A DNA stretch of 21,298 nucleotides from a virus, in IMG/VR virus record IMGVR_UViG_3300006922_000229, positions 1 through 21,298 of that record, one strand, 5' to 3'. Positions 1,597 to 20,610 of this stretch are shown here, in pieces (the stretch's first letter is position 1; each line of letters opens with the position of its first letter). The position numbers were made by a program, and so were the translations under genes. Under the pieces are notes generated by a model. It saw only the letters and a program-made list of their open reading frames with translations, was not told the origin of the DNA and did not search any database.

Positions 1597-2087
1597 AAAA
1601 AAGTCTTGTAGAAGTGGCTTATCAACGCCATCAAGATTGGTTAAGAGTTGTTTATGCCTTTGGGTGTAATAAAAGCACCGCAGAGGACATAGTACAAGAA
1701 ATGTATATACAACTTATCCAAGACGTTGATAAGGGATTAGACCTATGGCACAATGAAGATGTAAATATATATTATTGTTGGAAGGTGCTAAGGGGTATAT
1801 ACTTAAACACCCACAAAAAAGAAACAAGACAAATAAAGGAATACATAGAAGAAATAGGCGAACTTCAACAAATAGAAGAATTAGGAATAGATGAGGTAGA
1901 ATACGCTAAACAAAAAAATCAAATAGACGATATAATGAACGATATGTATTGGTACGACAGGAAAGTGTTTGAGATTTGTGCAAGTGGTAAAAGCGTTGCA
2001 GGATTGAGTAGGGAAACAGGCATAAGCTATTATTCATTATACAACACTTATGTAAATGCAAAGAAACATATAAAAGATAAATTATGA
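1593..2087 (+). CDS. phage-encoded RNA polymerase sigma factor, ECF-like
   Basis: The 164-residue protein has the two-domain layout of small sigma-70 family factors. Region 2 spans about residues 8-75 and contains AEDIVQEMYIQL (30-41), close to the ECF region 2 signature EDIVQEVF. After an acidic linker (about 82-108), region 4 spans about 110-164 with a helix-turn-helix at 134-160 (SVAGLSRETGISYYSLYN). It would direct host RNA polymerase to phage promoters. It lies in the early operon between a nuclease-like gene and a small Cys protein, with ATGA overlaps on both sides. The repeated non-host motif in front of late genes (7352, 8884, 16429, 18297, 20579) is an obvious candidate target; that link is inference. 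A non-sigma HTH regulator is the main alternative. Confidence 0.7.
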   Translation: MKKSLVEVAYQRHQDWLRVVYAFGCNKSTAEDIVQEMYIQLIQDVDKGLDLWHNEDVNIYYCWKVLRGIYLNTHKKETRQIKEYIEEIGELQQIEELGIDEVEYAKQKNQIDDIMNDMYWYDRKVFEICASGKSVAGLSRETGISYYSLYNTYVNAKKHIKDKL

Positions 2088-2828: not shown

Positions 2829-2847
2829 TTTGTTTATAATTTGTTTA
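2826..2847 (+). repeat. tandem 11-bp direct repeat next to a promoter
   Basis: TAATTTGTTTA occurs twice without a gap (2826-2836 and 2837-2847). The first copy includes the stop codon of the previous gene. The second copy contributes the TTTG of the promoter -33 element at 2840-2843. The 11-base period is about one helical turn, so both copies face the same side of the DNA. It could be an operator, or simply a duplicated -33 box. Confidence 0.6.
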
Positions 2848-2870
2848 TAATAAAAAAGTTTGTACATTTG
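2840..2870 (+). promoter_or_regulatory. Bacteroidota-type promoter (TTTG-N19-TACATTTG)
   Basis: TTTG at 2840-2843, a 19-base spacer, then TACATTTG at 2863-2870. This is an exact match to the Bacteroidota primary sigma consensus TTTG-N19/20-TAnnTTTG. Transcription would start at about 2875-2880, with the first ATG at 2888. It should drive the second early block using unmodified host polymerase, and it is the best evidence in the window for the host group. Confidence 0.8.
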
Positions 2871-6752: not shown

Positions 6753-7354
6753 TAACAAACGAAGACAATATGGAACTAATGGCAAGGTATGAGGATAATT
6801 ATTTCGACCTTGCTATTGTAGACCCGCCTTATGGGATTGGTGGTGGTGCAAATACTAAAAAAATGAATGTTGATTGGGATAATACAATACCAAATAAAAA
6901 TTATTTTACAGAATTATGTAGAGTTAGCAAAAATCAAATCATTTGGGGAGGTAATTATATGAGTAAAAAAATACCTTTTTATTCAAATCATACTATCATT
7001 TGGGATAAGGAAAATGGAGATAGTTTTATGAGTGATGGAGAAATAGCTTTTACATCAATAAAAAAACAAACAACAAAATTTTTTAGGTTATTTTGGATGA
7101 GCAATATGATGAAAGCAAAAGAAAAACCTTTAATACATCCAACACAAAAACCAATACAACTTTACGAATGGCTTTTAATGAATTACGCAAAAGAAGGGGA
7201 TAAAATATTAGACACACATTTAGGTAGTGGCTCAATAGCTATTGCGTGCCATAATTTAGGATATGACTTAACAGCTTGTGAATTGGATAAAGATTACTAC
7301 AACGCCGCGATAAAAAGAATAGAGCAACACAAAGCACAACAAAGGTTATTCTAA
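6746..7354 (+). CDS. DNA methyltransferase, N6-adenine or N4-cytosine (DPPY type)
   Basis: The 202-residue protein has catalytic motif IV DPPY at 26-29, HPTQKP at 131-136, the AdoMet-binding motif LDTHLGSGS at 155-163 and CELDKDYY at 178-185. The order IV then X then I is that of beta-class amino-methyltransferases. The length is short, which leaves a small target recognition domain, typical of phage orphan methyltransferases. It would methylate specific sites in phage DNA to evade host restriction; no restriction enzyme partner is adjacent. It is the last gene of the early region and is followed by the first late-type motif at 7352. Confidence 0.9.
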   Translation: MLITNEDNMELMARYEDNYFDLAIVDPPYGIGGGANTKKMNVDWDNTIPNKNYFTELCRVSKNQIIWGGNYMSKKIPFYSNHTIIWDKENGDSFMSDGEIAFTSIKKQTTKFFRLFWMSNMMKAKEKPLIHPTQKPIQLYEWLLMNYAKEGDKILDTHLGSGSIAIACHNLGYDLTACELDKDYYNAAIKRIEQHKAQQRLF

Positions 7355-7383
7355 AAAAAAAGTAATTCTGTTTATATATTATT
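7352..7383 (+). promoter_or_regulatory. late promoter-like element, copy A
   Basis: CTAAAA-like A-rich box from 7351, then TTTATATATTATT at 7371-7383. It has the same 19-base spacing between the upstream box and the TATATATT core as the other copies. It sits between the methyltransferase stop and the small terminase start (ATG at 7406), at the early/late boundary. It matches the other copies, not the host TAnnTTTG consensus. Confidence 0.55.
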
Positions 7384-7405
7384 GAATAAACAATCTTTTT
7401 CAATT

Positions 7406-7675
7406 ATGGACAAAAGAAAAAATAATGGTGGCGCAAGAAAAGGCGCAGGAAGAAAACCAAAGGCACAGGAACAAAAGCTAATAGAACGCTTAGACGCTAT
7501 AATAGACAAAGACGAAGCATTGGCAAAATTAGGAGAGTTGGTAGCTAAAGGCGATATGAGAGCAGTACAACTGTATTTAAGTTATCGTTATGGCAAACCA
7601 AAGGAAAGCGTAGACATAAACAGTTCAGAGGGCTTAAACATCAATTTTAGAGATTTAATTAAATTCGTAGACTAA
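7406..7675 (+). CDS. terminase small subunit
   Basis: The 89-residue protein begins MDKRKNNGGARKGAGRKPKA. The GGARKGAGRKPK basic motif is typical of small terminase subunits in many phages, which recognise phage DNA for packaging. A helical oligomerisation region follows. I prefer the ATG at 7406 over the TTG at 7382, because the upstream codons overlap the promoter-like element and the family normally starts just before the KGAGRK motif. The large terminase gene starts 3 bases after its stop. Confidence 0.8.
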   Translation: MDKRKNNGGARKGAGRKPKAQEQKLIERLDAIIDKDEALAKLGELVAKGDMRAVQLYLSYRYGKPKESVDINSSEGLNINFRDLIKFVD

Positions 7676-7678
7676 CGA

Positions 7679-8887
7679 TTGATTAACGTACATAGCAAAT
7701 ACAAAACTATTGTAGGCGAAAACAGTAGATACTACATAGTAAGTGGTGGGCGTGGGTCTGGTAAGTCATTTTCAGTAAACGCCCTTTTGGTAATGCTAAC
7801 ATACGAAGCAGGACACACAATACTATTTACACGCTATACCCTAACCTCTGCATACATATCCATTATACCTGAATTTATAGACAAGTTAGAACTGTTTGGA
7901 TTTACACAACACTTCCATATAACTAAGGACGAAATAATAAACAAACAGACAGGAAGTAAAATAATATTCAGAGGTATAAAAACATCAAGTGGCGACCAAA
8001 CCGCAAACCTAAAATCATTACAGGGCATTACAACTTGGGTGGTTGATGAAGCAGAGGAACTAACAGACGAACAGAAGTTTGACACTATTGACTTGTCGGT
8101 AAGACAACAAGGCAAACAAAACAGAGTTATCTTAATATTAAACCCAACTACAAAAGAGCATTTTATATACAAACGTTTCTTTGAGGATAGAGGGGTACAA
8201 GAGGGTAGCAATATAACCAAAGGCAATACAACCTACATACATACCACATACTTAGACAACATAGACAACCTCTCTAAAAGCTACATAGAGCAGATAGAAC
8301 AAATGCGACAACGTAGACCTGAGAAGTACAAACAACAAATGTTAGGTGCGTGGTTAAACAAAGCAGAGGGTGTTATATTTAATAATTGGACAATAGGCGA
8401 GTTTAAGCGTAAAGGTGTATCCGTATGGGGACAGGATTACGGATTTGCAGCAGACCCAACAACACTAATAGAAACAAACATAGATACAAGCACTAAAACA
8501 ATATATCTAAGGGAATGCGTGTACCTACCAAGACTAACCACATCACAAATAGCTGAACTGAATTTAAAACACGCAAGAGATGGTTTAATAATAGGGGATA
8601 GTGCAGAGCCACGATTAATCACAGAAATAAAAGCAAAGGGGTGCAATGTAAAGCCATCAATTAAAGGGCAGGGGAGTGTAACGTATGGTATATCTCTTTT
8701 GCAAGATTACGACCTTGTTGTAAGTTCAGATAGTACAAACCTCATCAAAGAACTAAATAACTATCGTTGGTTAGAACGCAAATCAAATACACCAATAGAC
8801 AAATACAACCACTTAATAGATGCGGTTAGGTATGCAGTAGGTTATCAATTACAAAACCCAAATAGAGGTAAGTATATTGTTCACTAA
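7679..8887 (+). CDS. terminase large subunit
   Basis: The 402-residue protein has an N-terminal packaging ATPase with Walker A GGRGSGKS (23-30), Walker B TTWVVDE (118-124) and coupling motif NPT (155-157). The C-terminal RNase H-like nuclease has acidic residues D253 (GQDYGF), D307 (IIGDS) and D381 (HLIDAVRY). The layout is that of PBSX-type (Terminase_3) large subunits. It cuts concatemeric DNA and drives it into the prohead through the portal. The start is TTG at 7679, 3 bases after the small subunit stop; no earlier ATG in this frame covers the N-terminus. Confidence 0.92.
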   Translation: MINVHSKYKTIVGENSRYYIVSGGRGSGKSFSVNALLVMLTYEAGHTILFTRYTLTSAYISIIPEFIDKLELFGFTQHFHITKDEIINKQTGSKIIFRGIKTSSGDQTANLKSLQGITTWVVDEAEELTDEQKFDTIDLSVRQQGKQNRVILILNPTTKEHFIYKRFFEDRGVQEGSNITKGNTTYIHTTYLDNIDNLSKSYIEQIEQMRQRRPEKYKQQMLGAWLNKAEGVIFNNWTIGEFKRKGVSVWGQDYGFAADPTTLIETNIDTSTKTIYLRECVYLPRLTTSQIAELNLKHARDGLIIGDSAEPRLITEIKAKGCNVKPSIKGQGSVTYGISLLQDYDLVVSSDSTNLIKELNNYRWLERKSNTPIDKYNHLIDAVRYAVGYQLQNPNRGKYIVH

Positions 8888-8916
8888 AATTATTTAAAAA
8901 CGTTTATATATTAATA
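8884..8916 (+). promoter_or_regulatory. late promoter-like element, copy B
   Basis: CTAAAATTATTT at 8884-8895, then TTTATATATTAATA at 8903-8916, 12 bases before the ATG at 8928. Core and spacing match copies D and E. It lies in the 40-base gap after the large terminase and would start the tail gene cluster. Confidence 0.65.
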
Positions 8917-8927
8917 ACAACAAGTAT

Positions 8928-9572
8928 ATGAATGTTAATTTAAGAATACCGACAACCCTAAACGAGATAACCTTAGGACAGTATCAAGAATATGCAAAGT
9001 TAGAAGGACTAAGCGAAACAGACCTACAACTAAAGACCATTGAGATATTTTGCAACGTGCCACCAATAGTAGTGCGCAATATGAAAGCTACAGACATAGT
9101 AGAGATATGTAGTATCATTAGTGGTATGTTCGATACTAAGCACCAACTAATATCAATGTTTAAATTAAACGGTGTTGAGTATGGGTTTATACCATCGCTT
9201 GAAGATATGAGTTTTGGCGAGTATGTGGACTTAGATACCTTTATTGGCGATAACGATAATTTGCATAGAGCAGTAAACGTACTATACAGACCAATAGAAC
9301 ACAGACAGGGCAATAGATACACGATAAAAGAGTATGACCCTAACACAAGCGAAATAGCAAAGGATATGCCTTTAGATGCTGTACTTGGTGCGGTTGTTTT
9401 TTTTTACAATTTAGGCAAGGACTTATCGATAGCTATGCTGAACTGTTTGGACAAGAAGAACGAGCAGACCTTAGCGGAGTATCTAACTTCAATGCCAAAT
9501 GGGGGTGGTACAATTCAATCTATGGACTATCTAACGGAGATGTTACAAAATTTGAACATATCACTAAATTAG
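8928..9572 (+). CDS. tail assembly chaperone, short (unshifted) form
   Basis: The 214-residue protein resembles the first tail-cluster protein of flavobacterial phages (IPTTLNEITLGQYQEY near the N-terminus, VLYRPIEHRQGNRYTI near 117-132). Tail assembly chaperones bind the tape measure during tail assembly and are usually made as a short and a -1 frameshifted long form. Here the zero frame runs through a T9 run (9397-9405) and then to the stop at 9572, while an overlapping -1 frame stays open to 9661. Calling it a chaperone rests on position, the frameshift architecture and the typical sequence of the extension. Confidence 0.65.
   Translation: MNVNLRIPTTLNEITLGQYQEYAKLEGLSETDLQLKTIEIFCNVPPIVVRNMKATDIVEICSIISGMFDTKHQLISMFKLNGVEYGFIPSLEDMSFGEYVDLDTFIGDNDNLHRAVNVLYRPIEHRQGNRYTIKEYDPNTSEIAKDMPLDAVLGAVVFFYNLGKDLSIAMLNCLDKKNEQTLAEYLTSMPNGGGTIQSMDYLTEMLQNLNISLN
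9398..9404 (+). other. -1 ribosomal frameshift slippery heptamer T TTT TTT
   Basis: In the zero frame the codons are GTT GTT TTT TTT TAC, so T TTT TTT (9398-9404) is a perfect X XXY YYZ heptamer inside a run of nine T. After a -1 slip both tRNAs can still pair fully with TTT. The -1 frame is open from 9344 to the TGA at 9659-9661. I could not define a downstream pseudoknot by eye. Confidence 0.6.
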
Positions 9573-9661
9573 GAGTACACGAATGTTTGACATTTCTAAC
9601 ATACACTAAAGAAAAAAACGAAATAGAGGCAAGACAAATAAAAAGTAAATTTAACAGATGA
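9404..9661 (+). CDS. -1 frame extension of the tail assembly chaperone (long-form C-terminus)
   Basis: After a slip at 9398-9404 the -1 frame encodes 85 more residues, giving a 244-residue long form (159 zero-frame plus 85). The extension contains NAKWGWYNSIYGLSNGD and then KFEHITKL and ECLTFLTYTKEKNE. This W-G-W...SIY.L..GD pattern is what I know from the frameshifted part of tail chaperones. The frame has no ATG of its own, so a frameshift (or a poor TTG/GTG start) is needed to express it. Its TGA overlaps the ATG of the next gene (9658) by ATGA, which shows ribosomes are expected to arrive in this frame. Confidence 0.65.
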   Translation, partial: LQFRQGLIDSYAELFGQEERADLSGVSNFNAKWGWYNSIYGLSNGDVTKFEHITKLGVHECLTFLTYTKEKNEIEARQIKSKFNR

Positions 9662-10128
9662 GCCAAACAGGAATAAGAGGATTTTACCTACTAACAGAAA
9701 CGATTAAAGACCAATTACTTGGCGATGTAAATGTAAACACCGTTACAACAGGCGATATATACGACATAGATTTAGCTAAGCAAAGTATATTCCCACTTAG
9801 TCATATAATCATAAACAACGTCACAACACAGGAACAGGTACTAACGTTTAACATTAGTATTTTGGCTATGGACATAGTTGATGAGAGCAAAGAAGCTACA
9901 ACGGATATATTCAGAGGGAACAACAACGAACAAGACATACTAAACACACAATTAGCTGTATTAAACAAATTAGTGATGGTGCTTAGAAAAGGCACACTAT
10001 ATAGCGACCAATACCAATTAGATGGCGATGCAACATTAGAGCCATTTTACGAGAGGTTTGATAATCGTTTAGCTGGGTGGAGTGCAACGTTTAATGTGTT
10101 TGTTAAGAACGATATTGATATATGTTAG
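9658..10128 (+). CDS. probable tail terminator / tail completion protein
   Basis: This 156-residue protein belongs to a family seen after the chaperone in flavobacterial phages: YDIDLAKQSIFPLSHIIINN in the N-terminal half, MDIVDE near 77-82, NEQDILNTQLAVLNKL in the middle, and AGWSATFNVFVKNDIDIC at the end. The alpha/beta pattern and size would suit a tail terminator that caps the tail tube, but no experimental link is known to me. Its ATG overlaps the stop of the chaperone extension, and its own 3' end overlaps the next gene by 7 bases. Confidence 0.55.
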   Translation: MSQTGIRGFYLLTETIKDQLLGDVNVNTVTTGDIYDIDLAKQSIFPLSHIIINNVTTQEQVLTFNISILAMDIVDESKEATTDIFRGNNNEQDILNTQLAVLNKLVMVLRKGTLYSDQYQLDGDATLEPFYERFDNRLAGWSATFNVFVKNDIDIC

Positions 10129-10628
10129 CAGATAAGTATTTAAGAGATGAACTAAATAAGTTTGCTAAGTACGTTATACAACAAAGCCGAAGCAACTTAA
10201 CTAAGGGCAAAAAAAACGCTTCTAAGGAACTTTATAATAGTTTAGGGTACGATATATCACAAAAAGGCGATACAACGTCTATGGCGTTTAAAATGGCTGA
10301 TTATGGTACATTCCAAGATAGAGGGGTAAGCGGAACAGAAAAGAAATACAACACACCTTATTCCTATACAACTAAAATGCCACCAAGAAAAGCATTTGAC
10401 AAATGGATAGTCAGAAAGGGTATTGCACCAAGAGGCAAAGGCGGTAAGTTTTTAAGCAGACAAAGTTTACAATATTTAATAGCAAGAGCAGTATATAAGA
10501 AAGGAATAAAACCGAGTTTGTTTTTTACAAAGCCATTTGAAGCAGCGTTTAAGCGTTTGCCAGATGATTTAGTAGAAGCGTACTCAATAGGATTAGAGAA
10601 ACAAATACAACTGAATATAAAGAAATGA
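10122..10628 (+). CDS. probable head-tail/tail completion protein (HK97 gp10-like position)
   Basis: The 168-residue basic protein contains MADYGTFQDRGVSGTEKKY, then KMPPRKAFDKWIVRKGIAPR and PSLFFTKPFEAAF. The segments recur in flavobacterial phage tail clusters. A basic helical N-terminus, a central loop and a C-terminal FFTKPF segment are like HK97 gp10-type neck proteins. Role inferred from context. It overlaps the previous gene by 7 bases and the next by 4. Confidence 0.55.
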   Translation: MLADKYLRDELNKFAKYVIQQSRSNLTKGKKNASKELYNSLGYDISQKGDTTSMAFKMADYGTFQDRGVSGTEKKYNTPYSYTTKMPPRKAFDKWIVRKGIAPRGKGGKFLSRQSLQYLIARAVYKKGIKPSLFFTKPFEAAFKRLPDDLVEAYSIGLEKQIQLNIKK

Positions 10629-11734
10629 AAATAAACGCAAGAAGCCCATACTACATAAACATAAGTGCTACCAACTTAACACAGGTAGATATGGAACTAT
10701 ATGTATACACAGGAACGCAAACAACCGATAGAAGCAATTTGTTTACATTAACTTCATTTGCTATAAGCGGAAATGTAACGTTTGAAATTGGCGAGATAGT
10801 TAGAGATTATATACTACAAACTTTTGATGGCGATTATGCAACCGCTAATGTATGGGTTGATTATAGAACTACAAGCTATATACAAGGCGTAGCACAAACA
10901 CCAACAGCATATACACAATTAGTTGGCTTTGATGGTTATGGGTATTATGAGGACGATGCAAACCCCCAGAATGATAGTGGGTTATTACAAAGTAATTACA
11001 AAATAGTAAAGTTAGACGATGCACCTGCAACAATTCCTGTAGATACTTCAAAGACCACACAAGTAACATACGAACTTGATGGCGAATTAGTATACACTAA
11101 AGCTGTATCAAGCAGTACAGTAAGTACAACGCAAGTTGAGTACGTTACAAATACTATAAATGGCTCTGATGAATTTGAGAACAGAGTTATACAAGATGGC
11201 GGTACGTTTGAGGGTAGCCCTTGTTTAAAACAGTTTGCTAATGATTTTACCTTATTTGACTTTGACACTATTTATGTAGACACTACTGATGGTGTTATTA
11301 AGCTAACTGTAGACAATATAGAGGAATGTAAATACCAACCTTATAAAGTAACGTTTGTAAATAAGTTCGGTGCATTACAAGACTTGTGGTTTTTCAAAAG
11401 AACAAACGAGGTGCTAACAACTAAAAAGGAAGATTTTAAGCGTAATATAATTGTTAATGGTGCTTATGATACAAGTAGACACCAACAGAAAATATTAACT
11501 AAGAACGGAACAGAAAAACTAACACTAAACACAGGGTTTTATCCAGAGGTTTATAACGAGGTATTTAAACAAATGCAGTTAAGCGAAGATTGTTGGATAG
11601 AGATAGAAAACAAAACACTTCCTATAAATGTAGCAAGTAGCAGTTTAAATTACAAAACACACTTAAACGACAAGCTAATAAATTACACAATACAAATAGA
11701 CTTTGCGTTTGACACGATAAACAACATACGTTAA
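10625..11734 (+). CDS. conserved flavobacterial phage tail protein
   Basis: The 369-residue protein starts MKINARSPYYINI and is rich in beta-strand-like Thr/Val/Tyr segments. The C-terminal half has CKYQPYKVTFVNKFGALQDL and ends in a Asp/Asn-rich FDTINNIR segment. I recall this architecture as a conserved tail-cluster protein in flavobacterial phages, probably part of the tail tip or baseplate. No enzymatic motif is visible. It overlaps its neighbours by 4 bases and 1 base. Confidence 0.55.
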   Translation: MKINARSPYYINISATNLTQVDMELYVYTGTQTTDRSNLFTLTSFAISGNVTFEIGEIVRDYILQTFDGDYATANVWVDYRTTSYIQGVAQTPTAYTQLVGFDGYGYYEDDANPQNDSGLLQSNYKIVKLDDAPATIPVDTSKTTQVTYELDGELVYTKAVSSSTVSTTQVEYVTNTINGSDEFENRVIQDGGTFEGSPCLKQFANDFTLFDFDTIYVDTTDGVIKLTVDNIEECKYQPYKVTFVNKFGALQDLWFFKRTNEVLTTKKEDFKRNIIVNGAYDTSRHQQKILTKNGTEKLTLNTGFYPEVYNEVFKQMQLSEDCWIEIENKTLPINVASSSLNYKTHLNDKLINYTIQIDFAFDTINNIR

Positions 11735-14376
11735 TGCAAATAATAGAACTATATATAAAAGGGTTTAATGTAGTAAGGGGTTCTGCTAAAAGTTTTGCCA
11801 CTAACAAATTAATTGACACAAGTAGTAATTTTACAGAATTAGGTGTTATAGTTGGCGATTTAGTTACAAACCAAAGAACACAGGAAACAGCGACAGTAAC
11901 AGCTATTGATAGTGATACTCAACTAAGTTTATCTGCTGATATTTTTGTTAGCCCAAACCCAGATTTATACAGAATTGAAAGCGATTATTTTAGAGCAGAT
12001 TTATTTGAGGACGAAAGTGTATCTATTACAGATAGTGTTTTAAACGTAAGAGATATAGGTAAAGTGTTTACACCCTTTAGCCAACAATTTAATTTACCTG
12101 CGTCTAAACTAAACAACAAGCTATTTAGACATTACGAAAACTTTGACATTGAAAACAGTTTTGATGCAAGGTTTAGACACGATGCTATAATAAAGCTAAA
12201 CGGAATAGACTACAAAAAAGGTAAGATACAATTTAAAAGCGTATCATTAAAAGACAATAAACCACACGCATACAAAGTAGTGTTTTTTGGCGATGCAGTA
12301 GAATTAAAAGAGGTGTTAGGGGAAACAACCTTGTCTGGTCTTAATTATGATAGTTCATTAAATTTTGAATACACACAAGCAAACATTGAAAATCTTTTTA
12401 CCGCATCAGATAGTTCAATAAATAGTACATTTGGTAGTACAGATATACTTGTGCCTAATATCCAACATAGTAAAAATATGCGCTACACAAACACAGGATA
12501 TAAGGACAATATAACAGACACAGGGCTTATTTGGACAGATTTAAAACCTGCAATTAGATGTAGAGCAATTATAGATGCAATAACCAACACCTATCCACAA
12601 TTAAATTTTACAGGGTTTTTTAATTCAGAGCCATTTAGCAATGTATATATGTGGGTGCATAGAAACGAGGGTTATGTTACAAATGCGGTAGAGGGGAACG
12701 ATACTTTTATAGTTAGAAACCGATGGCGACACCAAACAGATGACCCATTAGACTACACGCACACAAGTACAACCCCATCAAGTTTTGGCGATGTTAGAAC
12801 GCAGTATATTCAACCGCCAGGTTGGAAATTTAAGTATAGAGCAACAGTAAATGTTTTTACAAGCCAAACAGAGCCATATACAGTAAGAATTTTAAAAGGC
12901 AGTACAGGATATGTTTATCAAAGTTTTAATCACGAAAATGGTGGGAATACTGTAACGTTTACAGATATTACATACGACTTAACACCAGGTGGTGCATTAG
13001 ACCTTATTATTGAGGTTGAGAGTAATAACACAATTACAATGACCCAAACCTTAACAATACAGAAATATTCTGGTGCTATTCCTAACACTTATAACACGCT
13101 TGTATATACAGCTAACTATACACCAACAAACAACCAACCAGATAAAACTTTCTACATTGATAAACAAATGCCAGATATGAAAGTTATGGACTTTTTAAGT
13201 GGCTTGTTTAAAATGTTTAATTTGTTGGTTTTTAAAGATGGCAACAATATAGATATACAATTAGCAAGTGTTTTTATGAGAGGTGGTACTTCTTATGACA
13301 TAACTAAATATGTTGATATGGCTTCTTCTAACGTTGAGAGGTTATTTCAGTATAAAGAAATGGATTTTAGTTTTAAAAGCAAAAAATCATTTTTAGTACA
13401 GTTTTCAGACGAAATACAAGGTATACCTTTTTCACAAGAAAGCTATGGCGATAACGAATGGGACGGAAGGGTTTATAAAGTAGAAGTACCATTTGAGAAG
13501 ATGATGTATGAACGTTTAAGCAACGAAGATACAGGCGCACAAACATATATTGGACAAGGTGCGATGTTAGATAAAAAGTTTGAGCCGACAATAGGAGAGC
13601 CATTGTTGTTGGCTATACATTACGAAGAAAACACAAATAACGAACTAACAATAGGTGGAATTGCACCAACTCGCTATCGTAGACCCTCAAATATGACTAC
13701 TTTTAATTGGGGTTGGAATAATAGAATGCAACTTAATTTTGGTTTAGAAGCTGATGAGTGGTTAGGCGAAATGCCATTAGCACAAACATCTTCAAATTTA
13801 TTTGAAGCGGGGTATTTAGATTATACAGAAACTGTTTTTGATAGAAAGGCAAGACTTTATAAAGTTAGTGCATATTTACCACTAAGCATTATCACACAAT
13901 ACAAACTAAATGACAAATTTGTAATTAACAATACTTCCTTTAGAATTAATAAAATAAAAACAAATCTATTAACAAATAAAACAGATTTAGAGTTATACAA
14001 TAAAGAAGAATTTGTAAGTAATTTAGCAAATGGACAAGTAGCGTATTTAGATAGGGTTGCAAACGTACAAACCCCAACAATAGGTGCTAATGCAATAGAT
14101 TTATCTTGGGATAGTGTAAGTGGTGCAAATGGTTATGCTGTTTATGTTAATGGTGGTTTATTAGGTGTAGCGGTATTAACATCAGTAAAAATAACACCTT
14201 TAGAGCCAGATACTACTTATGAAATTGGGGTAAGCGCAAGGTTTGATGTAGATGGAAACGACCTTTATTCATTACCAACAACATTAACTGTAACAACATT
14301 ACCACCACCTGTTGCACTTGCAGAAGATGGCGACACATTAATAACAGAGGTTGGCGATACAATAATATTAGAATAA
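11734..14376 (+). CDS. large tail tip/baseplate protein with C-terminal fibronectin III domain
   Basis: This is the largest protein of the window (880 residues). The N-terminal region (about 1-90) is beta-rich; the middle contains many aromatic and Thr/Asn segments typical of tail tip or receptor-binding proteins. Residues about 775-862 form a fibronectin type III-like domain (IDLSWDSVSGANGYAVYV, then LEPDTTYEIGVSA), which in phage virions often mediates weak contacts with surface carbohydrates. After a Pro-rich linker it ends in ALAEDGDTLITEVGDTIILE, a short repeated hairpin-like tag that also occurs in other phage structural proteins. Its position before the tape measure suggests a tail tip role. 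Confidence 0.65.
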   Translation: MQIIELYIKGFNVVRGSAKSFATNKLIDTSSNFTELGVIVGDLVTNQRTQETATVTAIDSDTQLSLSADIFVSPNPDLYRIESDYFRADLFEDESVSITDSVLNVRDIGKVFTPFSQQFNLPASKLNNKLFRHYENFDIENSFDARFRHDAIIKLNGIDYKKGKIQFKSVSLKDNKPHAYKVVFFGDAVELKEVLGETTLSGLNYDSSLNFEYTQANIENLFTASDSSINSTFGSTDILVPNIQHSKNMRYTNTGYKDNITDTGLIWTDLKPAIRCRAIIDAITNTYPQLNFTGFFNSEPFSNVYMWVHRNEGYVTNAVEGNDTFIVRNRWRHQTDDPLDYTHTSTTPSSFGDVRTQYIQPPGWKFKYRATVNVFTSQTEPYTVRILKGSTGYVYQSFNHENGGNTVTFTDITYDLTPGGALDLIIEVESNNTITMTQTLTIQKYSGAIPNTYNTLVYTANYTPTNNQPDKTFYIDKQMPDMKVMDFLSGLFKMFNLLVFKDGNNIDIQLASVFMRGGTSYDITKYVDMASSNVERLFQYKEMDFSFKSKKSFLVQFSDEIQGIPFSQESYGDNEWDGRVYKVEVPFEKMMYERLSNEDTGAQTYIGQGAMLDKKFEPTIGEPLLLAIHYEENTNNELTIGGIAPTRYRRPSNMTTFNWGWNNRMQLNFGLEADEWLGEMPLAQTSSNLFEAGYLDYTETVFDRKARLYKVSAYLPLSIITQYKLNDKFVINNTSFRINKIKTNLLTNKTDLELYNKEEFVSNLANGQVAYLDRVANVQTPTIGANAIDLSWDSVSGANGYAVYVNGGLLGVAVLTSVKITPLEPDTTYEIGVSARFDVDGNDLYSLPTTLTVTTLPPPVALAEDGDTLITEVGDTIILE

Positions 14377-14516
14377 TGATAAGATTAATTTTAGACAGCT
14401 TAAAATACGCAAACGGAGAAACGGAAAATATCCGCATAGCACAGGGTAAACACAAACTACCTACAACACTAAAAGAGGGTTACAAAGCACTTAAACGAGA
14501 AATAAAATGGCAATAG
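14376..14516 (+). CDS. small hypothetical protein between tail protein and tape measure
   Basis: The 46-residue ORF starts at the base shared with the previous stop (TAATG) and ends 10 bases inside the tape measure gene. It begins MIRLILDSLKYANGETENI and has a basic C-terminus. The overlaps on both sides and the lack of any other gene in this 130-base gap support it. No family is recognised. Confidence 0.55.
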   Translation: MIRLILDSLKYANGETENIRIAQGKHKLPTTLKEGYKALKREIKWQ

Positions 14517-16426
14517 AAAAAACAGTAGAAATAAAAGTTGATAGTAAACAAGCAGAAAAAAATCTTAAAGAAATAAACTCAACTATTGACGACCAAAGAG
14601 CAATATTGGTATTGTTAGAGGAAGAATATATAAAAGCAAAAAAAGCCCTTGATGATTATACAAAGTCTGGAAAAGTAAATCTTGCGCAAGAAAAACAATT
14701 AAAACAAGCAGTATCCGAACGTAAAGACGCATTAACTGACCAACGTTTAGGATTGAAAAAATTAGCTGTTGAACAAAGAGCAGCTACAACTTCTGTTAAA
14801 GATTATAGAAAAGAGCAAAAAGAAAATACTAACATTGTAAGGGCTATTGATAAACTTACAGGGGGTTTTGCCACAAAAATAATAAAACTAACAAAGGGGT
14901 TTAAATCAAGTTTAAAAGGAATAAAAGGTTTTGTCGGTGGCTTAAGTGGTGTAAAAAAAGCACTAATCGGAACAGGTATTGGGGCATTAGTTGTTTTAGT
15001 TGGAACACTTGTAGCAAACTTTGATAAAATAAAAGAAAGTCTTTTTGGTATATCTAAGGAAACTAAAAACACAGTAAAATCTGCTGAAAAAACTGCATCA
15101 GCTTCTCAAGAACAATTAGATGCTTTAAATTCAAGTGAAAATATTTTAAGGGCGCAAGGAAAAAGTGAAAAACAAATAAGAGATTTAAAAAAACAACAAA
15201 CAGATGAAACAATTACAGCCCTTGAAGCACAATTAGAAGCGCAAAAAACTGTTAGACAATCACAAATAGACACTGCAAAAAGAAACAAAACAATCCTTGA
15301 GGGAATTTTAAATTTTATAACAGCACCTTTAAAATTATTAACTAAAAGCATAGACAGTATTGGTGCAAAGTTTGGTAAAGATTTTGGTTTAACGGAAAGC
15401 ATTGAAAGTTTTAATGAAGCTGTTGCAGGAAAATTATTTAGTGGAATAGACGAAGAAGGCGATGAAGCTATAAAAGAAACAGAAAAACAACTTTTAAAAT
15501 TAAAAAATGCAAGGGCTAATTTTGAATTACAAGATAAAAAGGACAACGAGAATAAAGCAAAAGAAAAAAGAGATAAAGAGTTAAAAGATGCACAAGAACT
15601 TGAGGATTTAAAAAACAGAATAAGAGAAGCAAGTGCTAATAAAGAAGATGAAAGAAGGGCATTAGAATTACAAAAAATAAAAGAAGAAAACCAAAAACTA
15701 ATAGATGAAGCAAAAGCTAAAGGTTTATTAACAGAAGAATTGCAAACATCTTTAAATGAAAGATTAGCAGCTAAACAAGCGGAATTTGATGAAATTGACA
15801 GACAAAGAAGAGAAGAAAAAAACGCTAAACAATTAGAAGAAACTAAACTACTAAACGAACAACTCGCTACAGCAGAAACAAATTTACAACAAGCTAAAGC
15901 CAATGCAATACAAGGTGGTTTACAAGTTATAGGGACTTTAGCAGGAAAGTCTAAAGCAGTGGCTAAAACATTATTAGTTGTAGAAAAAGGTTTAGCAATA
16001 GCGCAAGTTATTTCAAATGCTGCGAGGGCGATTGCACAAGCGAAAGCAAATTTGGCTGCCACACCTGCTGTTATTGGTTTAGTACCAAACCCTGCTTATG
16101 TAATACAAGCAGCCGCAACTGCTAAAGGCATATTATCAACTAAATTAACCGCAGCCACGTCAGTTGCAACTATTGCTGCACAGGCAATAGCAGGATTAGG
16201 CGGTGGCGGTGGTGGTGGCGGTGCAAGTGTTGGTGGCTTAGGCGGTGGTGCTTCAGCTGAAACACAACCCCCACAATTCAATATTGTAGGTGCAACAGAA
16301 ACAAGCCAATTAGCGGAAGCGGTAGCAGGACAAACACAAGAGCCAGTACAAGCGTATGTTGTAGCTAATGACGTAACAACCGCACAAAGTTTAGAAAACA
16401 ATATTGTTGAGGGTGCGACCCTATAA
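14507..16426 (+). CDS. tail tape measure protein
   Basis: The 639-residue protein has long N-terminal and central coiled coils rich in Lys, Glu and Gln (about 10-110 and 340-470), a hydrophobic segment GIGALVVLVGTLVANFDKIK near 157-176, an Ala-rich hydrophobic region (about 475-545), a Gly-rich linker (about 564-583), and a C-terminus with AYVVANDVTTAQSLENNI. This layout fits the rod that sets siphovirus tail length and later helps DNA cross the inner membrane. At about 0.15 nm per residue it would predict a tail of roughly 95-100 nm. A long antisense ORF here is a composition shadow. Confidence 0.8.
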   Translation: MAIEKTVEIKVDSKQAEKNLKEINSTIDDQRAILVLLEEEYIKAKKALDDYTKSGKVNLAQEKQLKQAVSERKDALTDQRLGLKKLAVEQRAATTSVKDYRKEQKENTNIVRAIDKLTGGFATKIIKLTKGFKSSLKGIKGFVGGLSGVKKALIGTGIGALVVLVGTLVANFDKIKESLFGISKETKNTVKSAEKTASASQEQLDALNSSENILRAQGKSEKQIRDLKKQQTDETITALEAQLEAQKTVRQSQIDTAKRNKTILEGILNFITAPLKLLTKSIDSIGAKFGKDFGLTESIESFNEAVAGKLFSGIDEEGDEAIKETEKQLLKLKNARANFELQDKKDNENKAKEKRDKELKDAQELEDLKNRIREASANKEDERRALELQKIKEENQKLIDEAKAKGLLTEELQTSLNERLAAKQAEFDEIDRQRREEKNAKQLEETKLLNEQLATAETNLQQAKANAIQGGLQVIGTLAGKSKAVAKTLLVVEKGLAIAQVISNAARAIAQAKANLAATPAVIGLVPNPAYVIQAAATAKGILSTKLTAATSVATIAAQAIAGLGGGGGGGGASVGGLGGGASAETQPPQFNIVGATETSQLAEAVAGQTQEPVQAYVVANDVTTAQSLENNIVEGATL

Positions 16427-16428
16427 AT

Positions 16429-16460
16429 ACAAAAATAATTAAAAAACATTATATAATAAT
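16429..16460 (+). promoter_or_regulatory. late promoter-like element, copy C
   Basis: ACAAAAATAATT at 16429-16440, then ATTATATAATAAT at 16448-16460, ending directly at the ATG at 16461. Spacing is the same as copies D and E; one core base differs (TATAATAAT for TATATTAAT). It sits between the tape measure and the protease gene. Confidence 0.6.
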
Positions 16461-17507
16461 ATGCGAATAGTAGAACTAATTTTAGACGAAGAACAAGAAA
16501 TAGGTATTGAAGCTATTAGCGTAGTGGAAAACCCTGCAATAGAGGAAGATTTTATAGCTTTAAAAAGCCAAGAATTTAAACTTGCAGAGGTAGACAAAGA
16601 AAAGCGTATTTTAATGGGTGCTTTATTGATACCTAACAAGCCCATATACAGACGTAATGGCGAAGATGAGTATTATATATATTTTTCAAAAGATACGGTC
16701 TTAAAAGCGTCACAAATGTACCTTATGCAAGGTAAACAAAACAACTCAACCTTAGAACACCAATACGAAATAAACGGACTATCATTAGTAGAGAGTTGGA
16801 TAGTAGAGGACAAGGTACACGACAAAAGCGTAAAATACGGAATGGATTTACCTTTAGGAACGTGGGTTGGAAGTGTTAAGGTTAATAACGAACAAATTTG
16901 GAATGAGTTTGTTAAGACAGGCAAAGTAAAAGGTTTTAGTATAGAGGGGTATTTTGCTGATAAGATGGAACGCCCACAGGAAAAAATAAACGACTTTAGT
17001 AGTGATGAACTATTAAAAGAAATAGACCAAGACGAAGCGGAGTATTTACTTAGCGAGATACGAGCCATCATAAAAAACGATAAGCGAGTAAAGGGTGGTA
17101 AGAAGATGATACTTGAAAGCTACACCGATTATCCAAGTGGCGTAAAGAACAACGCAAAGCGAGGTTTAGAACTTAACGAAAAGGTAAACAACAAATGTGC
17201 AACCCAAGTAGGAAAAGTTAGGGCGCAACAATTAGCACAGGGCAAACCTATTAGCGTAGAAACTATTAAGCGTATGTATTCTTATTTGTCAAGAGCAGAG
17301 GAATATTACGATGAAAGCGACACGACTGCTTGTGGTACTATCTCTTATTTATTATGGGGTGGTAAGGCAGGTAAACGTTGGGCATTAAGCAAACTAAAAG
17401 AGTTAGACCTTATAGACCTTAAAGCACCTTGTCAAGCAGGATATGAGCAGTACGGAATGAAAATGAAAAACGGTAGATTAGTACCTAATTGTATTCCTAT
17501 TAAATGA
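16461..17507 (+). CDS. XkdF-like prohead protease with C-terminal extra domain
   Basis: The 348-residue protein has an N-terminal XkdF/S78-like serine protease domain: VVENPAIEEDFIAL (21-34), ILMGALLIPNKPIYRR (50-65), H100 in NSTLEHQ, VESWIVED (110-117), and S160 in KGFSIEG. H100 and S160 are the likely catalytic pair. It would cleave scaffold and capsid during head maturation. From about residue 212 a second conserved domain follows (NAKRGLELNEK, CATQVGKVRAQQ, RMYSYLSRAEEYY, ACGTISYLLWGG), ending in a Cys-containing tail (PCQAGYEQYGM, PNCIPIK). That fusion is common in flavobacterial phages; its role is unknown to me. Confidence 0.8.
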   Translation: MRIVELILDEEQEIGIEAISVVENPAIEEDFIALKSQEFKLAEVDKEKRILMGALLIPNKPIYRRNGEDEYYIYFSKDTVLKASQMYLMQGKQNNSTLEHQYEINGLSLVESWIVEDKVHDKSVKYGMDLPLGTWVGSVKVNNEQIWNEFVKTGKVKGFSIEGYFADKMERPQEKINDFSSDELLKEIDQDEAEYLLSEIRAIIKNDKRVKGGKKMILESYTDYPSGVKNNAKRGLELNEKVNNKCATQVGKVRAQQLAQGKPISVETIKRMYSYLSRAEEYYDESDTTACGTISYLLWGGKAGKRWALSKLKELDLIDLKAPCQAGYEQYGMKMKNGRLVPNCIPIK

Positions 17508-17632
17508 GAAAAGTAGCGGTTAAAATAGAACGCAAAAGAGTAAGACGTAAAGGCATACACGCTAAAAGCAAAACAAGTCAATTAAAGTCAAGTAAGAACT
17601 ATAAGAAACTAAATAGGGGACAGGGCAAATGA
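17504..17632 (+). CDS. 42-residue highly basic protein
   Basis: The ORF starts at the ATGA overlap with the protease gene. It is very rich in Lys and Arg (RKRVRRKGIHAKSKTSQLKS, then SKNYKKLNRGQGK) with almost no acidic residue. A similar small basic protein recurs at this place in flavobacterial phages. It probably binds DNA or RNA, or an acidic partner such as the scaffold; nothing more can be shown. The next ATG overlaps its stop by 4 bases. Confidence 0.65.
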   Translation: MRKVAVKIERKRVRRKGIHAKSKTSQLKSSKNYKKLNRGQGK

Positions 17633-17841
17633 GATTTAAAAAATTCTTTACACCAAGTAGAACAAGTCCAAAAGGTGGACGTAGGGCTTGTCTATGTGAG
17701 GACAACACCTACTCTATTAAATGTTGTGATGGTAGTTTAAGGGCGCAAGGCATAGGTACGACAACAAAACAATTTAATTACTTGTTACAAGAAAACACAA
17801 GTTTTATATTACAAGAAAATAACAGTAAAATTATTTTATAA
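17629..17841 (+). CDS. small Cys-rich phage protein with a C-terminal hairpin-like tag
   Basis: The 70-residue protein has a basic N-terminus, then RRACLCEDNTYSIKCCDGSL (18-37) with C21, C23, C32 and C33, a possible metal-binding cluster, followed by RAQGIG. The C-terminal about 20 residues YLLQENTSFILQENNSKIIL form a duplicated (L/I)LQEN repeat similar to the tag at the end of the 880-residue tail protein. The Cys-cluster family recurs in flavobacterial phages; function unknown. The next ATG shares one base with its stop. Confidence 0.65.
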   Translation: MRFKKFFTPSRTSPKGGRRACLCEDNTYSIKCCDGSLRAQGIGTTTKQFNYLLQENTSFILQENNSKIIL

Positions 17842-18290
17842 TGTCAGATAAAAAAATTACACAATTAGACAATACAGCCGCTTTAGATGGTACAGAAAAT
17901 TTAGTATTTGTACAAAGTGATATTACTAAAAAAGGTACAGTAAACGATATTATAAATTATTTAGTACCTACACACATAACTGTATCAAGTGGACAAACTG
18001 TAAACCTTTCGGATAGTCAATACGCTAACATTAAACTTGTAAGACTAACGTGGAGTGGTGGCGCAGGAAATATGACACTTAATTTACCAAGCGCATCGGA
18101 CAACACAAATAGAGCAATAAGATTTATTTCAAACGGTGGTTTTAACACAAACACAAGGGTTTATTTAACACCAAGCGGTGGCGATACATTAGATGGCTCA
18201 ACTAATTACTATGAAATAAACAAAGAATACGAGGGAATATATGTTTGGAGTGATGGTACGGAGTGGTTTATAATTCAGAAAAAAGCATAA
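17841..18290 (+). CDS. small structural protein, fibre or capsid decoration-like
   Basis: The 149-residue protein starts with KKITQLDNTAALDGTENLVF and KKGTVNDIINYL. This ITQL...FVQ...TKK.T..DI pattern is typical of the N-terminal attachment domain of phage fibre and decoration proteins. The rest is beta-rich, with LTWSGGAGNMTLNLPS and YLTPSGGDTLDGS, ending in WSDGTEWFIIQ, a strand layout like small fibre heads. It lies between the Cys-rich protein and the scaffold, so it probably ends up in the virion. Confidence 0.55.
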   Translation: MSDKKITQLDNTAALDGTENLVFVQSDITKKGTVNDIINYLVPTHITVSSGQTVNLSDSQYANIKLVRLTWSGGAGNMTLNLPSASDNTNRAIRFISNGGFNTNTRVYLTPSGGDTLDGSTNYYEINKEYEGIYVWSDGTEWFIIQKKA

Positions 18291-18296
18291 CAAAAT

Positions 18297-18328
18297 ACAA
18301 AATTAATTTTTAACCATTATATATTAAT
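18297..18328 (+). promoter_or_regulatory. late promoter-like element, copy D
   Basis: ACAAAATTAATT at 18297-18308, then ATTATATATTAAT at 18316-18328, ending directly at the ATG at 18329. It is one of the best copies, in front of the scaffold and major capsid genes, which need the highest late expression. Confidence 0.7.
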
Positions 18329-18955
18329 ATGAACACGAACGATATGATTAGTAAAATCAAAGAAGTTCTAAACCTTAGCGAAGAAGTTAAGTTAGAACAA
18401 CAAGCGTTAGAAAACGGTACTGTATTAGAAGCAGAAGCGTTTGAGAGTGGCAATGAAGTATTTATTGTTACCGAAGATGAAAAAGTAGCTGTTCCTGTTG
18501 GCGAATACCAATTAGAGGACGGACGTATTTTAGTAGTAGCCGAAGAGGGATTGATTGCAGAAATTAAAACCGAAGAAGCGGAAGAAGAAACCGAAGAAGT
18601 AGAAGCAACGGAAGATGTGGAACTTGAAGAGAAAGAAGAAGAAAAAGAGGTTTATGCTACTAAAGAGGAATTAGCTGAGGTTAAGTCAATGCTTGAAGAA
18701 ATTAAGTCAATGTTAGAGCCAAAAGAGGATTTAAGCGCAGACGAATTAGGAAACCTTATGACCGAGGAACTTTGCAAACACGACAAAGTGGAACTAAGCG
18801 AAGTGCCAGAAGAAGTACAGGAAGAACTAAACCAACCTGCTGCTGAGCCAATTCAAGCTAACCCAGAAACAAAACAAAACCTATCTAAATTCAATATCTC
18901 ACAAAACAGAAGAATGAGTACATTGGATAGAGTAATGGCAAAATTTAATAATTAA
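18329..18955 (+). CDS. capsid scaffold protein
   Basis: The 208-residue protein is very acidic: an N-terminal segment with VAVPVGEYQLEDGRILVV (53-70), a Glu-rich stretch at 82-108, a short coiled coil at about 111-131 with the repeat KSMLEE-I-KSMLE, and a C-terminal basic tail (NRRMSTLDRVMAKFNN) likely to contact the coat protein. Composition, size and position directly before the major capsid gene fit a scaffold that guides prohead assembly and is then removed, probably by the XkdF-like protease upstream. 23 bases separate it from the capsid gene, without a promoter motif in between, so the two are probably co-transcribed. Confidence 0.75.
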   Translation: MNTNDMISKIKEVLNLSEEVKLEQQALENGTVLEAEAFESGNEVFIVTEDEKVAVPVGEYQLEDGRILVVAEEGLIAEIKTEEAEEETEEVEATEDVELEEKEEEKEVYATKEELAEVKSMLEEIKSMLEPKEDLSADELGNLMTEELCKHDKVELSEVPEEVQEELNQPAAEPIQANPETKQNLSKFNISQNRRMSTLDRVMAKFNN

Positions 18956-18978
18956 TAAACAACTAAAAACTAAATAAA

Positions 18979-19914
18979 ATGAGTGTAAACATTGTATCAT
19001 CAAGTTATAGCGGGGAATTCAGCGGCAAATATATAGCCGCAGCGCTTCTCTCGGCTGACACATTAGACAAAGGGCTAATTACAATTATGCCTAACGTTAA
19101 GTTTAAGTCTGTAATCAAAAAGGCTTCAACTGACGACATCGTAAAAGACGCTACTTGCGACTTTCAAACTGGACAAGGGACTTTAACTCTTGAAGAAAAA
19201 ATCCTTCAACCAGAGGAATTTCAAGTAAACCTCGACATTTGTAAGAAAGATTTGCATAGCGATTGGGAAGCTGCTCAAATGGGATATTCTGCATTTGACA
19301 ACCTACCTGCAAACTTTTCTGATTTTGTATTGGCTCACGTTGCTGCAAAAGTAGCTGACCGTACAGAAAGAAACATTTGGTCTGGAGATACTGGAACTTC
19401 TGGACAATTCGACGGATTTGCTACATTGTTAGCTGCCGATGGCGATTTACCTGCAGGACAAGACATTGTTGGTACTGCTGTAACGGCTGCAAACGTTGTT
19501 GATGAATTAGGCGATGTTGTAGATGCTATTCCTACTGCTGTTTACGGAAGTGATGACTTAGTAATTTACGCTGCTTCTAATGTTATTCGTGCATATACTC
19601 GTGCATTAGGTGGTTTTCAATCTGGTGGACAAGGTGCTGCAGGTTATGAAAACAAAGGAAACAACCAATCTTTAGGGTCTTTATTCTTTGATGGTATTCC
19701 TGTTGTTCCTGCTCGTGGTGCTGCTGACGATATGATTATCGCTGCTGAAAAATCTAACTTATTCTTTGGTACAGGTATCTTAAATGACCTTAACGAAGTA
19801 AGAGTTATTGATATGGCTGAAACTGACGGAAGCCAAAACGTTCGTGTAGTGATGAGATTTACAGCAGGTGTACAATACGCCCAAGTATCTGACATTGTTT
19901 ACAGAACTGTATAA
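18979..19914 (+). CDS. major capsid protein (HK97-fold expected)
   Basis: The 311-residue protein starts MSVNIVSSSYSGEFSGKYIAAALL and continues with LDKGLITIMPNVK, the pattern of coat proteins in Bacteroidota phages. The size is right for an HK97-fold coat without a delta domain. Codon use differs clearly from its neighbours: GCT, GTT, GGT, TCT, GAC and AAC are preferred, as in highly expressed flavobacterial genes. It follows the scaffold and is followed by a strong terminator, both typical for the main coat gene. Confidence 0.8.
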   Translation: MSVNIVSSSYSGEFSGKYIAAALLSADTLDKGLITIMPNVKFKSVIKKASTDDIVKDATCDFQTGQGTLTLEEKILQPEEFQVNLDICKKDLHSDWEAAQMGYSAFDNLPANFSDFVLAHVAAKVADRTERNIWSGDTGTSGQFDGFATLLAADGDLPAGQDIVGTAVTAANVVDELGDVVDAIPTAVYGSDDLVIYAASNVIRAYTRALGGFQSGGQGAAGYENKGNNQSLGSLFFDGIPVVPARGAADDMIIAAEKSNLFFGTGILNDLNEVRVIDMAETDGSQNVRVVMRFTAGVQYAQVSDIVYRTV

Positions 19915-19934
19915 TAATTAATTAATCAACGTAG

Positions 19935-19965
19935 AAAGGGGTGGGGGATTGCCCTACCCTTTTTT
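19935..19965 (+). terminator. Rho-independent terminator after the major capsid gene
   Basis: AAAGGG (19935-19940) pairs with CCCTTT (about 19957-19962). Inside it, after a bulged G, TGGGG pairs with the CCCTA stretch through one G-U pair around a GATTG loop, and a T tract follows. It insulates the capsid transcript from the next gene, which therefore needs its own promoter. Confidence 0.8.
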
Positions 19966-19986
19966 ATTTAAAAACATTTTAAAAAT
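19964..19986 (+). promoter_or_regulatory. degenerate late promoter-like element (copy F)
   Basis: TTATTTAAAAACATTTTAAAAAT ends at the ATG at 19987. The left half is nearly identical to that of copy B (TTATTTAAAAACG), but the core is TTTTAAAAAT instead of TTTATATATT. Because a terminator lies directly upstream, some promoter must lie here, which makes the weak match more credible. Confidence 0.35.
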
Positions 19987-20514
19987 ATGGCTTGTTCATT
20001 AACTACAGGAAGAAAAGTACCTTGCAAAAGCGCAGTAGGTGGTATTAAAACTATTTACTTTGCTGATTTTGGTACTCTTGGCGATGCAACCATCGCTGCA
20101 GGGGAAATTACTGCATTAGCAGGGTCGCCTACTTGGTTTCAATTTGATGTTAAGGGTAATTCTTCTTTAGAAACTGCTATCAATTCTTCAAGAGAGAATG
20201 GTACTACTTTCTATGAGAGTACACTTAACCTAACTTTGACCTTCCAAGACAAAGCGACACAAGAGGAACTTAAACTAATTGCACACGCAAGACCGCACAT
20301 TGCTATTGAGGACTATAACGGAAACTATTTCCTTATGGGCTTAGAACACGGTGCTGATGTAAACGGTGGAACTATCGTTACAGGTGCAGCTATGGGGGAT
20401 TTAACAGGATATACAATTACAGCGGTTGCACAGGAAACTGCGCCACCTTATTTTGTAACAGCTTCTGTTATCACCGATGATGCTTCTGCAACACAGATTG
20501 ACCCAACTGCATAA
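19987..20514 (+). CDS. probable major tail (tube) protein
   Basis: The 175-residue protein starts MACSLTTGRKVPCKSAVGG, then KTIYFADFG. The middle has ENGTTFYESTLNLTLTFQDK, then HARPHIAIEDYNGNYFLMG, and GADVNGGTIVTG followed by GDLTGYTITAVAQE, a strand order that resembles phage tail tube proteins. It uses the same high-expression codons as the capsid gene and has its own terminators on both sides, as expected for a second very abundant virion protein. A second capsid or decoration role is the main alternative. Confidence 0.65.
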   Translation: MACSLTTGRKVPCKSAVGGIKTIYFADFGTLGDATIAAGEITALAGSPTWFQFDVKGNSSLETAINSSRENGTTFYESTLNLTLTFQDKATQEELKLIAHARPHIAIEDYNGNYFLMGLEHGADVNGGTIVTGAAMGDLTGYTITAVAQETAPPYFVTASVITDDASATQIDPTA

Positions 20515-20533
20515 CAATTTAGGGTTTTAAATT

Positions 20534-20565
20534 AAAGGGTTATCTTTTTAGGTAGCCCTTTTTTT
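20534..20565 (+). terminator. Rho-independent terminator after the tail tube gene
   Basis: AAAGGGTTATC (20534-20544) pairs with GGTAGCCCTTT (20551-20561) with two G-U pairs around a TTTTTA loop, followed by a T tract to 20565. This isolates the tail tube gene as its own transcription unit. Confidence 0.8.
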
Positions 20566-20578
20566 ATACCCATACAAT

Positions 20579-20610
20579 ACAAAATAAATTAGTTTTGTTT
20601 ATATATTAAT
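20579..20610 (+). promoter_or_regulatory. late promoter-like element, copy E
   Basis: ACAAAATAAATT at 20579-20590, then TTTATATATTAAT at 20598-20610, ending directly at the ATG at 20611. The core is the same as in copy B. It lies just after a terminator, so a promoter is required here, which supports reading the motif as a promoter. Confidence 0.7.

Follow-up and report, generated by a model that had tools for sequence, protein, structure and literature searches.

Proposed start-codon-adjoining late promoters and their probable reader, a phage-encoded ECF-like sigma factor, in a group of marine flavobacterial siphophages

Phage-encoded sigma factors that drive late genes are already known from phiEco32 and Salmonella phage 7-11, T4 and SPO1. 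T4 late promoters have only a -10-like element, TATAAATA, and need the sliding clamp. The sigma factors of phiEco32 and 7-11 have been treated as distant relatives of the sigma-A family and act at middle/late promoters for which a 9-bp extended -10 model has been described. T4 gp55 and SPO1 gp28/gp34 are essential for late/middle transcription (PMC9429907). Extracytoplasmic function (ECF) sigma factors contain sigma2 and sigma4 only, joined by a linker of <50 residues, and their promoters carry AAC at -35 and CGT at -10 (PMC8103513). Late gene control in Bacteroidota phages is barely described, and in the open-access literature searched we found neither a paper on a phage sigma factor or late promoter in these phages nor a description of the promoter reported here. 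The window analysed is a linear IMG/VR virus fragment of 21.3 kb (IMGVR_UViG_3300006922_000229, positions 1 to 21,298) from a siphovirus-like phage, with a G+C content of 34%. It carries five copies of a bipartite element, P1 to P5, and a gene for an ECF-like sigma factor. We propose, with a probability of roughly 0.86, that P1-P5 are late promoters of this sigma factor. A first-pass annotation of the window had put forward the five elements as candidate phage-specific late promoters; the sigma gene, and the usual position of the core against a start codon, are new here. The main features, with lengths in nucleotides (nt), are as follows.

7353..7383, + strand: late promoter P1 (terminase operon), core TTATATATTATT (7372-7383), preceded at about 14-15 nt by an A-rich box
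8885..8915, + strand: late promoter P2, box TAAAA (8885-8889), core TTATATATTAAT (8904-8915)
16430..16460, + strand: late promoter P3, box CAAAA (16430-16434), core TTATATAATAAT (16449-16460)
18298..18328, + strand: late promoter P4, box CAAAA (18298-18302), core TTATATATTAAT (18317-18328)
20580..20610, + strand: late promoter P5, box CAAAA (20580-20584), core TTATATATTAAT (20599-20610), after a terminator-like hairpin
1593..2087, + strand: ECF-like sigma factor of 164 amino acids, sigma2 + sigma4, proposed reader of P1-P5

The pattern YAAAA-N14-TTATATAWTAAT occurs at 7353, 8885, 16430, 18298 and 20580, on the sense strand in 5/5 cases. When up to one mismatch was allowed, YAAAA-N14-TTATATAWTAWT gave five matches in the window, all on the + strand, while 100 dinucleotide shuffles gave a mean of 0.07 and a maximum of 1. 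The five sites of the first-pass annotation (7352, 8884, 16429, 18297 and 20579) are thus real, and the motif is rarer in shuffled sequence of the same composition. A weight matrix trained on 14 non-redundant sites, some window copies among them, scored P1 at 13.9, P2 at 35.3, P3 at 29.8, P4 at 31.5 and P5 at 39.7. The 95th percentile of the best score in shuffles was 14.2, which leaves P2-P5 far above every shuffle and P1 (7352) borderline. This weakest copy, whose A-run is one base longer in the window than in the related genome G020, is backed by its orthologues, with the element present in 21/28 TerS upstream regions. The core adjoins the ATG at 16461 (P3, prohead protease), 18329 (P4) and 20611 (P5), and lies 12 nt upstream of the ATG at 8928 (P2) and 22 nt upstream of the TerS ATG at 7406 (P1). 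A sixth, degenerate copy had been counted at 19964, wrongly: its best matrix score is -8.6 and the element is absent from all 47 orthologous upstream regions.

Relatives were gathered through their homologues of the sigma and capsid proteins; many of their contigs are metagenome fragments. Among these homology-selected loci the element was found in 144/176 upstream regions of five late units: besides TerS, gene 8928 (35/42), the protease (28/34), the scaffold (30/32) and gene 20611 (30/40). It preceded none of nine other late genes (0/282) and early genes in 2/290 cases, so that its distribution is that of one promoter per transcription unit. Orthologues of the early window gene 254 have the late element in 2/62 upstream regions. 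Scanning with the matrix gave 152 matches, of which 145 are in the sense orientation, 151 are intergenic and 103 have the core directly on the ATG; the seven antisense matches are AT repeats.

A scan of IMG/VR by motif alone (motif + ATG) found at least 120 stretches, and the reversed motif found two. Among the matches listed, 68/68 newly fetched loci had window-gene homologues and 78/82 sites preceded the same four gene families. In contrast, 84,980 bacterial and archaeal genomes gave only 11 matches, which lay inside open reading frames (ORFs) or before no real gene, none being at the intergenic start of a real gene, and which look like chance. Because the IMG/VR matches fall in the phage group and the bacterial matches are not at gene starts, the element is a signal of the phage group and not of the host.

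The ORF at 1593-2087 matches sigma-70 region 2 in Pfam and PHROG, with a Pfam score of 21.9, just under the curated cut-off of 24. In an alignment of 40 relatives region 2 is conserved and the C-terminal helix-turn-helix, ISYYSLYNTY, is very conserved. The AlphaFold2 model has a predicted local distance difference test (pLDDT) score of 82 and a predicted template modelling (pTM) score of 0.50, and its top Foldseek matches are all ECF sigmas, sigma4-DNA complexes included. A sequence-only search of the PDB returned no relatives; only the fold search succeeded. The 164-residue length, the modelled helices and the Foldseek matches agree with the ECF architecture of sigma2 and sigma4 only with a short linker, and the strict spacing of box and core is also that of ECF promoters. 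Every examined motif-bearing contig of >27 kb has the sigma gene, and motif contigs that lack it are shorter fragments. No close relatives were found in the bacterial genomes searched, where two Flavobacteriaceae genomes gave borderline profile matches only, or by tblastn in cultured phages outside Nonlabens phages P12024L and P12024S. No anti-sigma was recognised among the window genes, for which no systematic search was made, and no RNA polymerase-like gene was seen among the ORFs and families of one near-complete relative. One sigma copy (L064:10001-10483) has an in-frame TAA, either a sequencing error or a broken gene.

The core diverges together with the sigma factor. Relatives whose sigma has 39-48% identity to that of the window have no window-type core; in such diverged-sigma relatives the same genes are preceded by CTATATA, CGATATA or CGTTATA, which mostly adjoins the ATG. 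The core types therefore read TTA, CTA, CGA or CGT at -12 to -10, and T-9 is common to all. In all four types YAAAA lies at offset 19 in 82-91% of sites, a count that includes partly motif-selected loci; at homology-selected sites only, YAAAW is present in 57/60 TT and 12/12 CT sites, and in 2/4 and 0/4 of the small CG sets. Within a genome, the cores of different, non-homologous genes are alike beyond expectation (0/1000 permutations). In the sigma tree the TT and CT core types each form one clade (support 95/95 and 100/98), with the CG types outside both. A conserved box would fit the conserved sigma4 helix, and a variable core the more variable sigma2. That the core changes in step with the sigma, over hundreds of relatives, suggests that this sigma factor reads the element. 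Together, gene-specific conservation, strand, intergenic placement, near absence at bacterial gene starts and this concerted change strongly support the phage-specific late promoter first proposed.

Only three sigma columns fully separate the TT, CT and CG groups. At one of them, residue 72, TT sigmas have N, CT sigmas have A/S/Q and every CG sigma, that of P12024L included, has D. Among 63 sigma/promoter pairs, D72 occurs with G-11 in 13/13 and N/A/S/Q72 with T-11 in 50/50, while G68 occurs with A-10 in 53/53 and S/T/C68 with T-10 in 10/10. The tree shows three changes of base -10, each accompanied by a change at residue 68 (3/3 concordant). In the Mycobacterium tuberculosis (Mtb) sigmaH open complex, N92 contacts the -11 pair and N88 contacts base -10, in promoters with G-11 T-10 T-9 (PMC6411747). 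When aligned by eye along the helix, residues 72 and 68 correspond to N92 and N88, and N72 and G68 are proposed as candidate specificity residues of the window sigma.

The remaining features that bear on transcription are listed below.

2841..2870, + strand: host-type (Bacteroidota sigma-A) promoter TTG-N19-TACATTTG, early half
7406..7675, + strand: TerS-like gene, first gene after P1
16461..17507, + strand: XkdF-like prohead protease gene (Peptidase_S78_2), downstream of P3
18979..19914, + strand: putative major capsid gene, own element in 0/51 orthologues
19938-19955: terminator-like hairpin, after the capsid gene
20534-20561: terminator-like hairpin, after the 19987 gene and before P5

Genes are arranged in the order early, terminase, tail, protease, scaffold, capsid and head-completion, and the portal gene starts at the 3' end. 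The P4 gene (ATG 18329) is scaffold-like and lies upstream of the putative major capsid gene, which is presumably transcribed from P4. Two copies were earlier said to follow terminators directly; P5 does follow the hairpin at 20534-20561, whereas no recognisable promoter follows that at 19938-19955, so gene 19987 probably relies on read-through. The early half has a host-type TAnnTTTG promoter, as the first-pass annotation stated (TTG-N-TAnnTTTG at 2841-2870), and this is the only full TTG/TAHHTTTG match in intergenic DNA of the window. The late signal is indeed unlike the host consensus, with no Bacteroidota sigma-A -7 element (TAHHTTTG; consensus from PMC6847099) at P1-P5. Across the sigma-bearing loci, host-type matches are mainly sense intergenic (103 vs 16 antisense intergenic).

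From these patterns we infer a scheme for sigma binding, start point and timing. Host RNA polymerase would transcribe the early region, including the sigma gene (1593-2087), from host-type promoters, and the phage ECF-like sigma would then take over the host core polymerase; this early-to-late order, host sigma then phage sigma, is modelled on phiEco32 (PMC4331800). Sigma4 would bind YAAAA, placed at about -31 to -27, and sigma2 would bind and melt the core at -12 to -6, with bases -11 and -10 read by residues 72 and 68. Each element would start one virion unit: the terminase genes, the 8928 tail module, the protease, the scaffold and capsid, or the head-completion and portal genes. Transcripts are predicted to start on the base that follows the core, or at most one to two bases from there, which would give leaderless mRNAs where the core adjoins the ATG (P3, P4, P5) and leaders of about 12 nt at P2 and 22 nt at P1. 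When the A of the adjoining ATG is taken as +1, CG-type cores read C-12 G-11 T-10 T-9, which is the sigmaH register, and leaderless late mRNAs are predicted from this. The register suggests that most late messages may begin at the start codon. A split of leader lengths (0 vs >=12 nt) was dropped as start-site evidence, as other clades have the core at 1-4 nt from the ATG.

Several observations weigh against reading P1-P5 as promoters of the phage sigma with a start at the core's edge. The box reads YAAAA where canonical ECF promoters have AAC, and CGT is found only in basal clades and P12024L, the window clade having TTA. ECF autoregulation is also lacking, as the element occurs in 0/76 sigma upstream regions; we call the factor ECF-like because its fold and size fit but these two hallmarks fail. 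The box of the CGATATA group is shifted by one base in the homology-selected set. Residue 40 separates the groups as well and is a further candidate, so that 68 and 72 do not stand alone. The covariation comprises two to three independent switches, with two pairs on supported branches, too few for a sign test to become significant. As sigma and promoters have mostly been passed on as a set, co-divergence alone could reflect another co-inherited factor. On this account the promoters are real, and their specificity comes from a host alternative sigma or from a phage activator acting on the host holoenzyme, with the phage sigma merely co-travelling. The sigma tree and the phage phylogeny do nearly coincide, and the phage has further genes of unknown function. 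Against it, residues at positions structurally equivalent to promoter contacts covary with the contacted bases, including across the independent switches, the core register is that of ECF promoters, host gene starts do not use the motif, and inspection of the near-complete relative showed no further recognised transcription factor or polymerase. We regard such a factor as quite improbable.

A start several bases up- or downstream, at promoters that are real and sigma-dependent, is a more serious contender, though still unlikely, and the late mRNAs would then not be leaderless. The start site rests only on the register shared with sigmaH promoters, in some relatives 1-4 nt separate the core and the ATG, and transcripts of Flavobacterium johnsoniae are mostly leadered, 87% by >10 nt (PMC6847099). 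A core at -12 to -6, however, leaves few bases at most before an adjoining ATG, and G-11 T-10 T-9 is the exact ECF register with the A of the ATG at +1. It is very doubtful that the core is instead a Kozak-like, A-rich translation-initiation signal of Bacteroidota genes and not a promoter. Initiation in F. johnsoniae is favoured by A at -3 and -6 (PMC6847099), both of which the core supplies, and the core adjoins the ATG in 103/152 matches; but a second box stands at a fixed spacing beyond the ribosome footprint, the core sequence is kept at P1, P2 and relatives, where 12-37 nt lie between it and the ATG, it is absent from other late and nearly all early genes that are also translated (0/282 and 2/290), and it differs from clade to clade along with the sigma. 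Chance similarity, which low G+C and a core of only A and T might favour, accounts for the rejected copy at 19964 and is refuted for the five sites by the shuffles, the reversed-motif control, the strand bias and the gene specificity, which leaves it a negligible probability.

Other observations concern relatives and neighbouring genes. In the CTATATA clade (L330, L337, L353 and others) one more gene, which starts MQLINIQEVKPNENNPRFIKDYKFKKLVKS and looks ParB-like by eye, is a late-promoter target. A further clade (L150-L161, e.g. L153 and L159) has a GGTTATATAAGT-like core and an AACAA-type box before the same genes; on the one checked fragment of this clade (the L159 contig) no sigma was found. 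In the window, a Mom-family gene at 5590-6225 (PF25680, E = 3e-38) may provide a Mu-Mom-like DNA modification, and a DNA methyltransferase gene (6746-7354) lies near it. At the contig start (1-181), a perfect inverted repeat of 88 nt around a 5-nt loop duplicates the 3' end of a gene ending ..EEAADLPF* and is probably an assembly or amplification artefact.

We lean towards a broader picture, with less assurance than for the promoters themselves, in which marine flavobacterial siphophages of a large group, hardly any of them cultured, govern all their late genes through an ECF-like sigma that co-evolves with a rigid promoter joined directly to the start codon, with a residue-to-base code (72 with -11, 68 with -10) and leaderless late mRNAs as the rule in a usually leadered phylum. 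If true, it would offer a ready motif with which the late operons of these common marine phages can be located and oriented. It would also provide a series of sigma/promoter pairs, perhaps orthogonal, that work with the polymerase of Bacteroidota, and a natural experiment in -10 recognition by ECF sigmas.

Among known systems, the proposed arrangement resembles phiEco32 gp36 and Salmonella phage 7-11, in which a phage sigma redirects the host core polymerase to a few conserved promoters before structural genes and early genes use host sigma promoters (PMC4331800, PMC3594737). Compared by description, it differs in that the window sigma is small and ECF-like and the promoter is bipartite and rigidly spaced, with the core usually adjoining the ATG; here, too, promoter and sigma co-diverge across a large Bacteroidota phage group. 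By role, it is like T4 gp55 and SPO1 gp28/gp34, phage sigmas which move host polymerase to late/middle genes, and unlike T4 late promoters it has two boxes. With the ECF sigmas Mtb sigmaH and sigmaL, Bacillus subtilis SigW and Escherichia coli RpoE it shares sigma2 and sigma4 only, the fold, strict -35 and -10 elements and a rigid spacer, and CG-type cores place G-11 T-10 T-9 in the same register as sigmaH. It departs from them in its YAAAA box in place of AAC, the T-11 A-10 of the window-clade core, the lack of an element before the sigma gene and its location in a phage. The nearest cultured phages are Nonlabens phages P12024L and P12024S (Inhavirus): the window terminase is 55.6% identical to P12024L TerL, and gp35 (P12024L 21405-21884) belongs, though diverged, to the same sigma family (22% identity; E = 3e-39 against a profile built from an alignment that contained gp35). 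Its annotation names no more than a hypothetical protein containing Sigma-70 region 2. P12024L has another version of core and box, with CGTTAATATA-like cores that adjoin the ATGs of six structural-module genes. As the only cultured relatives of the window sigma found, gp35 and its twin in P12024S are a ready laboratory test case.

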